Assembly: GCA_035656635.1 (NCBI GenBank)
Contig: DASRSD010000043.1
Span: forward strand, 1 to 60,633
Source of the DNA: Pirellulales bacterium
GTDB taxonomy: Bacteria > Planctomycetota > Planctomycetia > Pirellulales > JADZDJ01
DNA length: 60,633 nt
Reading direction: 5' to 3'
The position numbers and the translations under genes were made by a program. Below the pieces are notes generated by a model. The model did no database searches and had not been told where the DNA came from. It was given only the letters and a program-made list of their open reading frames with translations. Below, one piece after another: positions 2,218 through 30,267 of the stretch (its first letter is position 1; each line of letters opens with the position of its first letter).

Positions 2218-5200
2218 TCAACACACGCCCCAGTTGCGGCCGGTTTTCAAATCGACTTTCAGCGGCACCTCCAAGGACATCACGCCCGACATCTCTTCGC
2301 GCACCAGTTGCTGCATTTCGTCCGTTTCGTCAGGCGGCACTTCAAAGATGAGTTCGTCATGAATTTGCAGCAGCATTTTGCTGCGCAGCGAACCCCTCAC
2401 CCTACCCTCTCCCACAAGGGGAGAGGGTTGACGCGCGGCTTCCACATCTCGCCTCGACGAGTCGCCTGCGGAGACCTGCCCCTCTCCCACAGGGAGAGGG
2501 TGAGAAGATTTTAGCCGGCGGTGAATGTTCAGCATGGCCAGCTTCATCAAGTCGGCCGCACTCCCTTGAATCACCGTGTTAATCGCCGTCCGTTCCGGCA
2601 GTGTGCGCTGCCGGGCTGCTGGATCGCCGGGTTTGGTCAGCGTGATGTCACGCACGCCTTGGATGGCGCGGCGCCGCCCTTGAATGGTCGTCACATAACC
2701 TTGCTTGCGGCATTGCACCAGAATCTCGCGCAAAAATAGTTCCACGCCCGGGTAACCGTTGAAATAGGCGTCAATGAACCGGGCCGCTTCTTCCTGCTCG
2801 ATCTCCAGCATCTTCGACAGGCCGAACGGGCTTTGCCCGTAAATAACGCCAAAATTTACCGCCTTGGCCACACGCCGCATTTCCGAAGTCACTTGATCCA
2901 GCGGCACATGATGCACCTGGCTGGCGACGCGGGCATGAATATCTTCGTCACGTTCAAAAGCCGCCAGCAGCGTTTCGTCGCTGGAAAAATGCGCCAGCAC
3001 GCGCAACTCTATCTGCGAATAATCGGCCGCCAAGAGCAACCAATCGGGCTGGCCGGGCAGGAATGCCGAACGGATTTCGCGTCCTTCCTCCGTGCGGATG
3101 GGAATGTTCTGCAAATTCGGATCGCTGGAACTCAAGCGCCCCGTCGCCGCCACAATTTGATTGAACGACGTGTGCACTCGGCCGGTTTGCGGATGCACCA
3201 TGCTGGGCAGGGCGTCGACGTACGTTCCCTTGAGCTTGGCGTATTGGCGATATTGAATAATTTTTGCCGGCAGCGGATGTTGCCGGGCCAATTCCTCCAG
3301 CACTTCGGCATCGGTGCTGGGTCCGGTTTTGGTTTTTTTGAGCACCGGCAGTTTCTGCTCGACAAACAGCACTTCCTGGAGTTGCTTGGGGCTGGCGATG
3401 TTGAATTCCCGATCGGCCAGCTTGAAAATTTCCGTTTCCAGCGAGGCCATGCGCTGCCCGTATTGAGCGCTCAATTCCGCCAGGCGCGCGGTGTCGACTT
3501 TAATGCCGTTGAATTCCAGTTCCACGAGCACTTCCACGAGTGGCACTTCCAGGTCGTGAAACAGCGGCTCCAAATTGGCTTCTTTCAGCCGCGCCGCCAG
3601 CAGCGGCATGAGCCGCAAGGCCACGTCGGCATCTTCGGCTGCATAGTGCGTGATTTCGGCGATCGGTACTTCATCCATCCGCTTTTGATTTTTGCCGCTG
3701 CCGATGAGCGCCTCGATTTTCGTCGTGACGTGGTTGAGATACCGCCCGGCGAGCTCATCGAGATTGTGATTTCGCTCGCCGGCATCGAGCAAATAGCTGG
3801 CCAGCATGGTGTCGAATTGCAGCCCGGCCAGCTCGACGCCGACGGAGCGAAGCACAATCATGTCGTACTTCAAATTCTGGCCGACTTTCCCAATCGCCGG
3901 GTTTTCCAGCACTGGCCGCAGCGCCTCTAAAGTAGATTTCGGATCCAAGCACGGCTCGCCGGCTGGCGCGCGAACCGGAACGTAATATGCCTGCCCCTCT
4001 TTCCAAGCGAATGAGTAACCGACGAGTTCCGCCCAGCGTGGATAAATGCTGGTTGTTTCCGTGTCGAGCGATATTTGCCCTTGCCGGCTCAGCTCCTCGA
4101 CCAGCCACTGCAATCGCTTCGGTGTGCCGATCGTTTCGTATTGGTGCGTGAACTTCGGTGCGTCGGCCTTGGCCAAGGACCGCATTTGATTGGTCAGCCC
4201 ATGAAAGCCAAACTCGGCGAAGAATTCCGCCGCGCCGGCCGGATCGTAATGACCGGCCTGGCCCTGCTGCCAATTCACAGCAATGTTCATTTCCGAATCG
4301 AGGCGCACCAACCGCCGCGTAATCGGAATTTGTTCGCGGCTGGCTAGCAAATTTTCTTTCCGCTTGCCTTTGGGCAACTCGTCGGCGCGGGCCAGGAGGT
4401 TGTCCAGCGTTTCGAATTTGGCCAGCCACTCGCCGGCCACTTTGGGACCGACCAGCGGCACGCCGGGAATGTTGTCGACCGAGTCTCCCACCAGCGTTTG
4501 AAAATCGACTACTTGATTGGGCCGAATGCCCCACTCGGCCTGGAGTGCCGCCGCATCAAATACCGAATCTTTGCGAATGTTGTAAACTGCCACCCGGTCG
4601 GAAATAAGCTGGCGACAATCTTTATCGCCGGTGACCAACAAACATTGCCCGCCCGCTTGCTCCACCTGCCGGGCCAAAGTCGCCAAAACATCGTCGGCTT
4701 CGTAACCGGGGCATTCCAAAATCGGAATTCCCAACGCGGCCAACATACGGCGAATGCTCACAATTTGCGGCCGCAGTGTGTCGGGCATTTCGGCCCGATG
4801 TTCCTTGTACCCTGTGAACAGATCGTGGCGGAACGTCAGGCCCGACATATCGAACGCCGCAAATAAATAGTCGGGCTTTTTCTGATCGAGCAAGTACATC
4901 ATGTCGCGGGCAAACCCGAACACCGCTCCGGTGGGCTCGCCGCGCGGGCTGGTCATTTCCGGCAGCGCGTGGAACACCTGAAAAATGAGCGAATGCGAAT
5001 CGACCACGTACACCGTTTTGCCCGTCAGATCGGGGGGCGTGGCTTTGGCTTCCACTGGCTCGGCCGGCTTTTCGATGCGATCGATTCCCATTTCGGCAGT
5101 CGATGGCGTGCCTGGAAATTCGCAATCCGGCGGCGAACGCGGATCGGGCTGCGCGGTGGCAGCAGCTTTATCAGGCGAAGCAGCGATTTTCTCGAGAGTA

Positions 5201-5271
5201 GCGGGAGCGTCGGCTTCCAGGCCGGGCAGTTCAATTTGCCGCTGAGGTTTTTGGCGCGAGCGCTGTTTCAT
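2218..5271 (-). CDS. polA: DNA polymerase I with in-frame repeat insertion
   Basis: Gap-filling and repair polymerase. The 1017 residues comprise a variable 80-residue N-terminal tail, the 5' nuclease domain from about residue 84 (VYVVDSHSLIFQ), a 3'-5' exonuclease domain with all three motifs (LDTET, NLKYD, YAAED), so proofreading should be intact, and the palm/fingers with motif A DYSQIELR, motif B KAVNFGVIYG and motif C HDELIFEVP. About 37 extra residues (~922-960) lie between helix NIHRRLKS and the strand leading to motif C. They are encoded by two GC-rich palindromes (2393-2505) and contain LPVGEG and SPLVGEGRVRG. In other Pol I enzymes this is a short loop. All catalytic motifs are intact, so the gene is probably functional. 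Confidence 0.96.
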   Translation of the reverse strand: MKQRSRQKPQRQIELPGLEADAPATLEKIAASPDKAAATAQPDPRSPPDCEFPGTPSTAEMGIDRIEKPAEPVEAKATPPDLTGKTVYVVDSHSLIFQVFHALPEMTSPRGEPTGAVFGFARDMMYLLDQKKPDYLFAAFDMSGLTFRHDLFTGYKEHRAEMPDTLRPQIVSIRRMLAALGIPILECPGYEADDVLATLARQVEQAGGQCLLVTGDKDCRQLISDRVAVYNIRKDSVFDAAALQAEWGIRPNQVVDFQTLVGDSVDNIPGVPLVGPKVAGEWLAKFETLDNLLARADELPKGKRKENLLASREQIPITRRLVRLDSEMNIAVNWQQGQAGHYDPAGAAEFFAEFGFHGLTNQMRSLAKADAPKFTHQYETIGTPKRLQWLVEELSRQGQISLDTETTSIYPRWAELVGYSFAWKEGQAYYVPVRAPAGEPCLDPKSTLEALRPVLENPAIGKVGQNLKYDMIVLRSVGVELAGLQFDTMLASYLLDAGERNHNLDELAGRYLNHVTTKIEALIGSGKNQKRMDEVPIAEITHYAAEDADVALRLMPLLAARLKEANLEPLFHDLEVPLVEVLVELEFNGIKVDTARLAELSAQYGQRMASLETEIFKLADREFNIASPKQLQEVLFVEQKLPVLKKTKTGPSTDAEVLEELARQHPLPAKIIQYRQYAKLKGTYVDALPSMVHPQTGRVHTSFNQIVAATGRLSSSDPNLQNIPIRTEEGREIRSAFLPGQPDWLLLAADYSQIELRVLAHFSSDETLLAAFERDEDIHARVASQVHHVPLDQVTSEMRRVAKAVNFGVIYGQSPFGLSKMLEIEQEEAARFIDAYFNGYPGVELFLREILVQCRKQGYVTTIQGRRRAIQGVRDITLTKPGDPAARQRTLPERTAINTVIQGSAADLMKLAMLNIHRRLKSSHPLPVGEGQVSAGDSSRRDVEAARQPSPLVGEGRVRGSLRSKMLLQIHDELIFEVPPDETDEMQQLVREEMSGVMSLEVPLKVDLKTGRNWGVC
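2393..2505. repeat. Paired palindromic repeat (family C) inside polA
   Basis: Two copies of a CCCTCTCCCACnnGGGAGAGGG hairpin, at about 2402-2428 and 2479-2500, flanked by inverted outer ends CCCCTCACC and GGTGAG. The whole element is about 113 bp and is read in frame through polA. A related copy lies in the NAD(P)HX epimerase gene at 17249-17290. Confidence 0.85.
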
Positions 5272-16702: not shown

Positions 16703-17443
16703 CTATCGCGCAATTTCCTCAATCAATCTGCGCGGGGCGCCAATATCGCAGACGTGAATCTGGCCGACGTATTGTTCCGCGCCGCTGACAAAGAATCCTG
16801 GCTTGGCCGCCACGAACGTGCATGTGTGGGCGGCGCGAATGGTGTGCTTTCCTGCCGCGCCGGTGTCACAATCTAGTCCGCTGGGCAAATCGACGGCCAA
16901 GATCGGAATGCCGCTGGCGTTCATCTGGTCGATCGCTTCCGCATAGGGCGATTTCGGCTCCCCCGTTGCGCCGGTGCCCAAAATGGCATCCACTAAAAAA
17001 TTGGCGCCGCGTAGAACCGCATCGAATCGCGCCTGATCGAATTCGCTTTCCGCCTGGCCGGCAAACACTTCAATCGCCAAACCCGTCTTTTGGATAATCG
17101 CAAAATTCGCCGCGGCATCGCCGCGCAGTTCGCTCGGATTACACAGCAGCAAGACTTTCACGCCGATGCGGCGCAAATCTAAATGCCGGGCAATTACGAA
17201 ACCATCGACGCCGTTGTTTCCCTTGCCGCAAACAATGGCGACGGAATTCTCACCCCTCACCCTGCCCTCTCCCACAAGAGGAGAGGGTTCGCTGGATTGT
17301 CCTGACGATTTGGCCAGCAGCCCACACAACACATCGGCTGCGCCGCGCCCGGCGTTTTCCATCAGGACCAATCCGCTTAGGCCGTAATCGGCAATTGCGC
17401 GATGGTCTACTTCCCGAACTTGTGCCCGATTGAGCGTGAGCAT
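16703..17443 (-). CDS. nnrE: NAD(P)H-hydrate epimerase (YjeF_N) with in-frame repeat
   Basis: Interconverts R- and S-NAD(P)HX so that the hydrated cofactor can be repaired by the matching dehydratase. Of 246 residues, the N-terminal YjeF domain shows LTLNRAQVREVDHRAI, LMENAGRGAADVL (~29-41), the phosphate loop VCGKGNNGVDGFVIARHL (~69-86), VDAILGTGATGE and VDLPSGLDCDTG. The usual dehydratase (carbohydrate-kinase) half is absent, so that enzyme must be elsewhere. Residues ~52-65 (EPSPLVGEGRVRGE) are encoded by a palindromic repeat lying exactly between the MENAGRG helix and the strand leading to the phosphate loop. Confidence 0.92.
   Translation of the reverse strand: MLTLNRAQVREVDHRAIADYGLSGLVLMENAGRGAADVLCGLLAKSSGQSSEPSPLVGEGRVRGENSVAIVCGKGNNGVDGFVIARHLDLRRIGVKVLLLCNPSELRGDAAANFAIIQKTGLAIEVFAGQAESEFDQARFDAVLRGANFLVDAILGTGATGEPKSPYAEAIDQMNASGIPILAVDLPSGLDCDTGAAGKHTIRAAHTCTFVAAKPGFFVSGAEQYVGQIHVCDIGAPRRLIEEIAR
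17249..17290. repeat. Family C palindrome inside nnrE
   Basis: CACCCTGCCCTCTCCCACAA and then GAGGAGAGGGTTCG form a hairpin of CCCTCTCC with GGAGAGGG. It is read in frame as SPLVGEGRVRG, the same peptide as one half of the polA insertion. Confidence 0.85.
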
Positions 17444-29118: not shown

Positions 29119-30267
29119 ATGCACTCCTGGCTCTCCTCTCGCTCTGTAGCGTTCGATAGCTCCGGCATCCGCAAGGTGTTTGACCTGGCGGCGAAGATGA
29201 AAGACCCCATCAATCTTTCCATCGGCCAGCCAGATTTCGACGTGCCGGAGCCGGCCCGTCGGGCCATGGTGGAGGCCGTCGAGAACCGCAAAAACGGTTA
29301 CTCTCAAACGCAAGGCATTGCGCCGCTGCTTGAAAAGCTGCAAACGCAACTGGCGACGCAGTACAAGCACGCCGATCGAAAAGTGTTCGTCACCAGCGGC
29401 ACTAGCGGCGGTTTGCTGCTGGTGATGATGGCGCTGGTGAACCCCGGCGACGAAGTGATTTTGTTCGATCCGTACTTTGTCACCTACGAGCCGTTGGTGA
29501 AATTGATGGGGGGCCGTGCGGTGTTGATCGACACGTATCCCCATTTCACGCTCGATTTGGATCAGGTCCGCGCCGCCATTACGCCCCGCACCAAGGCGAT
29601 TTTATTCGACAGCCCCGCCAACCCGACGGGCGTGGTGGCCACGCCGGCCGAAGTGGAAGGACTGGCCAAGTTGGCCGCCGAGCGCAATATCGCGCTCATC
29701 AGCGATGAAATTTACAGCACGTTTTGCTATCTGCCGTCTTCCACTGGGAGCGGGTCGGGTGAGGGCGCCGGATTCGTCTCGCCGGCCAAGTTCAACCCAC
29801 AAACGATTGTGGTCGAGGGATTTTCCAAAACATTCGCCATGACCGGTTGGCGAGTGGGTTTTGCACACGGTCCGGCCGCCGTCATTGACGAAATGATGAA
29901 GCTGCAGCAATACACCTTTGTGTGTGCCCCGCAGCCGGCGCAATGGGCCTGCGTGACCGCACTGGGCTTGGATATGCAAGTGCACATCGACGCCTACCGT
30001 TACAAGCGCGACATGCTGATCGAGGGTTTGCGCGGCGTGTACGAAATCGCCCAGCCCGAGGGAGCATTTTACATCTTCCCCAAAGTGCCCGAAAGCAGCG
30101 GCGCCAAATCTGCCAGCGAATTCGTGGAACGGGCAATTGAAAATCAACTGCTGATCATTCCCGGGAAGATTTTTTCCAGCCGCGACACGCATTTCCGCAT
30201 TTCCTACGCGGCGGAAAATCGGACCATTGAACGCGGCATTGAAGTACTGCTCAAGCTGGCCAAGTAA
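29119..30267 (+). CDS. PLP-dependent aminotransferase class I/II
   Basis: 382 residues of fold-type I. Visible are INLSIGQPDFDVPEP, the substrate/PLP segment FVTSGTSGGLLLVMMALVNPGD, FDSPANPTGVV (~169-179), SDEIYSTF and the PLP-binding Lys in GFSKTFAMTGWRVGFAHG (Lys ~237), then RISYAAENRTIERGIEVL. It resembles aspartate/aromatic aminotransferases of the AspC/PatA group; the amino donor cannot be told. Residues ~206-219 (SSTGSGSGEGAGF), before the PLP lysine strand, are encoded by DNA that looks like a decayed family C palindrome (29736-29770). Confidence 0.93.
   Translation: MHSWLSSRSVAFDSSGIRKVFDLAAKMKDPINLSIGQPDFDVPEPARRAMVEAVENRKNGYSQTQGIAPLLEKLQTQLATQYKHADRKVFVTSGTSGGLLLVMMALVNPGDEVILFDPYFVTYEPLVKLMGGRAVLIDTYPHFTLDLDQVRAAITPRTKAILFDSPANPTGVVATPAEVEGLAKLAAERNIALISDEIYSTFCYLPSSTGSGSGEGAGFVSPAKFNPQTIVVEGFSKTFAMTGWRVGFAHGPAAVIDEMMKLQQYTFVCAPQPAQWACVTALGLDMQVHIDAYRYKRDMLIEGLRGVYEIAQPEGAFYIFPKVPESSGAKSASEFVERAIENQLLIIPGKIFSSRDTHFRISYAAENRTIERGIEVLLKLAK
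29736..29770. repeat. Decayed family C palindrome inside the aminotransferase
   Basis: TCTTCCACTGGGAGCGGGTCGGGTGAGGGCGCCG resembles the common form CTCTCCCxxTGGGAGAGGGTCGGGGTGAGGG with several changes. The hairpin is largely lost but the frame is kept. Confidence 0.45.

Follow-up and report, generated by a model that had tools for sequence, protein, structure and literature searches.

The window, by which we mean the whole analysed stretch of 60,633 nucleotides from a Pirellulales bacterium, carries a polA gene whose reading frame passes, free of stop codons in translation across positions 2393-2505, through an inverted pair of short triplex-type repeats (Table 1). The host is identified as DNA polymerase I by its sequence as well as by matches of its fold to solved Pol I structures. 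Its identity with the PolA of relatives ranges from 41 to 88% (58-66% being typical within the order), and the named exonuclease and polymerase motifs are present in the translation, as had been claimed in an earlier note made from the sequence alone. That note had also described a palindromic element at this place, and we do find there paired GC-rich hairpins with inverted outer ends (CTCACCCT/AGGGTGAG, at 2396-2403 and 2497-2504).

Table 1. Features of the polA insertion and of the other copies of the repeat in the window
Feature	Positions	Strand	Basis
polA, DNA polymerase I, 1017 aa, host of the insertion	2218..5271	-	open frame; homology; Pol I structures
Inverted pair of triplex-type repeats, residues ~923-960 (+37 codons)	2393..2505	-	absent from all other PolA; pLDDT <50 at 924-959
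Complete unit 1, minus-strand reading CCCTCTCCC-CTTGT-GGGAGAGGG-TA-GGGTGAGGG	2394..2428	-	best covariance-model score in the genome; triplex pattern with 2-nt second loop
Spacer between units 1 and 2	2429..2479	.	partly common to the copy inside pckA
Unit 2, minus-strand stem-loop CCCTCTCCCTGTGGGAGAGGG, third strand collapsed into the stem end (AGGGTGAG)	2480..2504	+	stem-loop identical to E. coli TM no. 1
Another in-frame copy, within an NAD(P)HX-epimerase-like gene (CDS 16706-17443, minus)	17252..17289	-	Pfam YjeF_N E 2e-41 across the insert
Decayed half-copy in a class I aminotransferase-like gene (CDS 29119-30267, plus)	29746..29765	-	pattern match, 1 mismatch

The pair contains two perfect hairpins, at 2404-2428 (10-bp stem) and at 2480-2500 (9-bp stem), and the first of them makes up unit 1 together with a third strand at 2394-2402. 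The window contains the hairpin pattern two times, against an expectation of 0. The folding of the DNA strand beats 200 of 200 shuffles (z -3.2) and that of the mRNA strand beats all shuffles as well (z -3.6). Altogether the pair adds 111 nt to polA. The copy found inside pckA (G000:C184:56974, G000 being the source genome, assembled in 190 contigs) shares the spacer in part, with 80% identity over query positions 52-125, and the spacer peptide G-V-S-GDS recurs in this pckA copy and in G001:C153. Since the spacer between the units recurs, a longer composite element may exist.

The distance from QGSAADL to IHDEL is 73 residues in the PolA of the window against 36 in nearly all relatives, that is 37 additional codons, the number that the earlier note had estimated. 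When about 55 PolA from Pirellulales and other loci were aligned, as that note had proposed, the segment was present in the PolA of the window only and missing from all the others, close and distant. The PolA of G002, a genome of the same family, is 37 residues shorter in this loop; that of G001, which belongs to the same genus, is 88-89% identical and has no palindromes. Solved Pol I structures are also without the segment: in the displayed alignment their matches end at residues 921-926 and restart at 961. One candidate for an independent insertion of the repeat, an anomaly near residue 880 of the PolA of G018, was rejected, as it consists of about 45 low-complexity residues which lie in another loop and are not the repeat. 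We must also mention that G001 has 7 unrelated extra residues in the very same loop as the insert of the window; these could have remained from an insert since lost, or have been gained independently.

We modelled PolA with AlphaFold2 from a 53-sequence alignment and obtained a confident Pol I fold (mean pLDDT 86), for which Foldseek returned matches to the Pol I of Taq and M. smegmatis and to the Klenow fragment. The pLDDT falls below 50 in just two segments, residues 1-75 and residues 924-959, the latter being the insert. In the model the insert comes after the helix 891-922 and before the strands 965-970 and 973-978 of motif C. Because of this low pLDDT within an otherwise confident fold, the insert is best seen as a predicted flexible loop.

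Copies in the source genome and in its relatives

A covariance model of the unit (R1) gave 67 matches at E <= 1 in the source genome, and the bare hairpin pattern occurs 26 times there against 0 for the reversed control pattern; in total the genome holds about 60 copies. The earlier note had asked whether the element of 113 bp is repeated elsewhere: its unit of 34-42 nt is, mostly within genes, while the whole 113 bp is not. We read 66 copies together with their surroundings and tabulated them by location and phase, as had also been suggested. According to the largest open frame, 45 copies lie in frames of at least 240 aa (about 44 as a round figure), 43 of them with an assigned phase, and 20 are non-genic. 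Without exception the copies found within genes are in frame, and the element lies in each case inside the frame or near one end of it. None of the 20 non-genic copies, which look intergenic, sits in a gene broken out of frame.

These hosts are conserved genes: a Pfam domain was found in 39 of the 40 frames scanned. They include genes for NnrE-like and ClpC-like proteins, PrmC, MoeA, purH, valS (with two inserts), UvrD, UvrA, PEP carboxykinase, gltX, glycine decarboxylase, a chorismate-binding/TrpE protein, a NuoG-like protein, 3-dehydroquinate synthase, XdhC, uracil-DNA glycosylase and others. The two inserts of valS (L123:981-4508, in G000:C168) are separate copies, both in frame. In the window itself, about 14 codons corresponding to the copy at 17252-17289 are missing from the G001 orthologue, and the half-copy at 29746-29765 is read in frame as SGSGEGAG, in a host whose family name is a reading of the sequence only.

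The size of the insert agrees from one gene to the other. In 10 comparisons covering 7 genes, made with relatives devoid of sequence resembling the TM-ECO repeat described below, the commonest difference in length is 14 codons (42 nt). The borders show conservation of GCA before a 35-nt core and of AG followed by A-rich letters after it, which suggests a unit of about 42 nt. Insert lengths at intergenic sites were queried for 14 of the 20, where the flanks in G001 are too diverged; two copies turned out to be shared and one site was ambiguous. A single unit has a TGA in one of the three reverse frames, and its other five frames are open. As a single unit is some 42 nt long and is closed in only one frame, and the pair has 111 nt, insertion keeps the reading frame.

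The frames are not used evenly. We counted 41 independent genic copies. The Gly/Glu-rich reverse frames account for 21 of them, whereas the two frames that encode LPLPLRERAGVRG or LTPALSQGERE account for only 4. Usage deviates moderately from uniformity (chi-square p about 0.02 under conservative expectations), and for this reason selection probably acts to some extent on the added peptide, although this is not certain.

To follow the history of the copies, we used the flanking peptides as queries against G001 and G002 and compared the orthologous DNA. The inserts of polA, MOFRL, moeA, gltX, xdhC, the M20 peptidase gene and clpC, and both inserts of valS, are absent from G001 or from G001 and G002. 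Other copies are older: those of gcvPB, trpE, nuoG, queE and a glmU-like gene are found in G001 and are absent or different in G002, and they are more decayed, still in frame. At the site of the second valS insert, G002 holds another copy which is read in another frame. In an M56 peptidase gene (G000:C119:553, and its counterpart in G001) the unit occupies nearly the same codon position in both species but differs in frame or orientation, which suggests independent insertions or an inversion. Judging from these sequences, the same tolerant loop would thus have been used repeatedly in valS and in the M56 peptidase gene.

Within the order the distribution of the repeat is patchy, with 1 to 124 copies in 18 of the 40 genomes. 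In a sample of the best copies, and following a simple rule based on open frames and codon position, about half are genic in G001, against 3 of 27 in G018 and 11 of 36 in G031. This means that the heavy genic load is a trait of the source genus and not of the repeat everywhere.

Relationship to known repeats

By its sequence, the polA unit is to be classed as a variant of the intrastrand-triplex repeat TM-ECO, earlier called PIT (work by Hoyne and Maher, as cited in PMC4666352), whose pattern is CCCTCNCCCN3-6GGGNGAGGGN3GGGNGAGGG (Holder et al. 2015, PMC4666352). The three blocks CCCTCNCCC / GGGNGAGGG / GGGNGAGGG are found in both the E. coli and the polA repeat, and the stem-loop of unit 2 is identical, letter for letter, to E. 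coli TM no. 1 (PMC4666352, Table 1). Inverted pairs of similar length exist in both cases (85-101 nt in E. coli, 112 here), as does a patchy presence among close species. The polA copy itself does not fit the strict pattern with up to one mismatch, because its second loop has 2 nt and not 3; it differs further by its collapsed partner. The source-genome loci examined contain 23 matches to the strict pattern, and 31 when a second loop of 2-3 nt is allowed. Hence, we consider the polA copy as a loop variant in a family that otherwise fits. Unit 1 also obeys the general rule for intrastrand triplexes (ITxF: stems of 6-15 nt, loops of 1-6 nt), with stems of 9 nt and loops of 5 and 2 nt. TM-ECO has been listed for 262 proteobacterial genomes, and its in vitro folding into a triplex was shown for E. 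coli sequences only (PMC4666352). In E. coli MG1655 the copies are intergenic without exception and comprise five inverted pairs (PMC4666352), whereas here, in a planctomycete, most copies are read within genes, 44 of them in frames of at least 240 aa.

Palindromes inside genes have precedents. Di Nocera et al. (2013, PMC3733652) described in-frame intragenic REPs of the GTAG and CGTC superfamilies, in genes which include those of DNA polymerase I, UvrA, UvrD and tRNA synthetases. These too are short palindromes, often paired and in frame inside many genes; they differ by their sequence and tag, and most of their copies are intergenic, whereas the recognisable copies of the present repeat are mostly genic, with 14 codons as the most frequent insert length. 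An unpaired GTAG tag at the end of the palindrome is not a feature of our aligned copies, whose linkers are CCG, CGA, CAA, TG, TA and others; the polA copy alone shows GTAG, by virtue of its TA linker, and none of the aligned copies has a CGTC tag. CGTC REPs resemble the present repeat in being likewise without a linked transposase (PMC3733652). REPINs and their RAYT transposases (Bertels and Rainey 2011, PMC3116915) offer another parallel, that of non-autonomous inverted hairpin pairs possibly served in trans by a Y1 transposase, also with no target duplication seen for the polA-type repeat; the difference is that the present repeat is mostly genic, not extragenic, and that we found no Y1_Tnp gene flanked by it.

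Rickettsia palindromic elements, as far as they are portrayed in the citing source (Ogata et al. 2000, 2002, cited in PMC10969869), are likewise palindromes lying in frame within unrelated metabolic genes whose proteins tolerate them. They are described there as about 150 bp long, in Rickettsia and with other sequences, so that unit length and host set them apart, and we claim no relation. The earlier note had drawn this parallel while stressing that the sequence is different. Neither of the two outcomes that the note had named as refuting it was obtained, and the parallel holds with two amendments: the repeat is of a known type, and its mobility is something that we infer from presence and absence among relatives.

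As for the databases, nothing in Rfam came close to the gathering score for the element and the phage collection gave no match to the repeat; in the plasmid collection only the unit was matched; these matches are in Rhizobium, Azospirillum and enterobacteria, and most of them overlap no gene. Our literature search found no report linking the TM/PIT repeat with coding insertion. In-frame intragenic palindromes being already known (REPs, including those in DNA polymerase I, and Rickettsia palindromic elements), what looks new is the scale, together with the family of the repeat and its 42-nt unit.

Origin of the insertion and competing explanations

The reading which we favour, with a probability of roughly 0.8, is that an inverted TM-ECO/PIT-type pair was inserted into polA, kept the frame and came to lie in a tolerated loop, harmful copies being purged. 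The pair would be a non-autonomous dispersed palindrome, similar to REPs and REPINs. It would have entered polA after the source species split from its nearest relative and, keeping the frame, would add a flexible unstructured loop that separates the last palm helix from motif C. Copies falling in tolerant surface loops would survive and be translated, probably at little cost, while selection would remove the harmful ones. The repeat may still be actively mobile.

The mobilising enzyme could be a Y1 (HUH) transposase acting in trans. The source genome has 13 Y1_Tnp matches, three of them with E < 1e-18. We looked for a link between RAYT/Y1 transposases and the repeat through flanking copies and rejected it: none was flanked among 10 loci of the source genome and 30 from seven relatives. 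At one source-genome locus a weak repeat match lies about 1 kb away, and this is the copy inside the neighbouring gltX. No consistent direct repeat was seen at the borders of the aligned copies, as a target-site duplication would leave; therefore the insertion is not proven as a transposition. There is a bolder version, which we hold to be doubtful: in this genus the repeat, with an inserted length fixed at 42 nt (14 codons) and all but one of its six frames open, would be, through chance or adaptation, a frame-neutral mobile unit, which an enzyme spreads and which seeds flexible Gly/Glu/Pro-rich loops in conserved enzymes across the genome.

The insert could instead be functional and kept for altering Pol I, for instance its processivity or fidelity. 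The hosts polA, uvrA, uvrD and uracil-DNA glycosylase echo the list of repair genes in PMC3733652, for which Di Nocera et al. proposed, as a speculation, a mutator hypothesis of REP-tagged repair genes. We regard this as improbable, since the repeat is found in genes of all sorts (for tRNA synthetases, purine and tryptophan synthesis, and NADH dehydrogenase), the loop is predicted to be disordered and outside the conserved core, and the polA copy is unique to the source species; for this last reason its long-term conservation cannot be shown. It is more improbable still that the insert is missing from the mature product through ribosomal bypassing or splicing. The strong mRNA hairpins would suit such a process, which does not need frame-keeping lengths; yet all gene-borne copies are in frame and no gene is split, and the moderate frame bias by peptide content suggests that the peptide is made.

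A misjoining of contigs at the repeat might be feared in an assembly of 190 contigs, but it can hardly be believed, as the sequences to the left and right of each insert form a continuous alignment with a single gene in relatives, several insertions recur at the same codon in the independent genome G001, and the frame is kept every time. Equally hard to believe is an ordinary lineage-specific growth of the PolA loop, by slippage or point-wise indels, with coincidental palindromes: PolA loops do vary, as G001 and G018 illustrate, but the inserted DNA consists of two copies of a repeat present about 60 times in the genome, and the genome-wide counts contradict this explanation.

A repeat which is reported to be always intergenic in E. 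coli MG1655 sits within about forty conserved genes of a planctomycete, and the idea of selfish DNA in proteins, formed on REPs and Rickettsia palindromic elements, is extended to a triplex-type repeat that Proteobacteria have too. The empty, filled and decayed sites in sister genomes make up a natural experiment on the tolerance of loops and on the retention of random inserts; the same sites bear on the question of frame neutrality in short mobile repeats.

Finally, an observation from E. coli MG1655 concerns the size of the mobile unit. In the region 3045700-3046400, an inverted TM pair lies within a stretch of about 165 bp which recurs elsewhere in E. coli at 87% identity, so that the mobile unit may there exceed the triplex pair.
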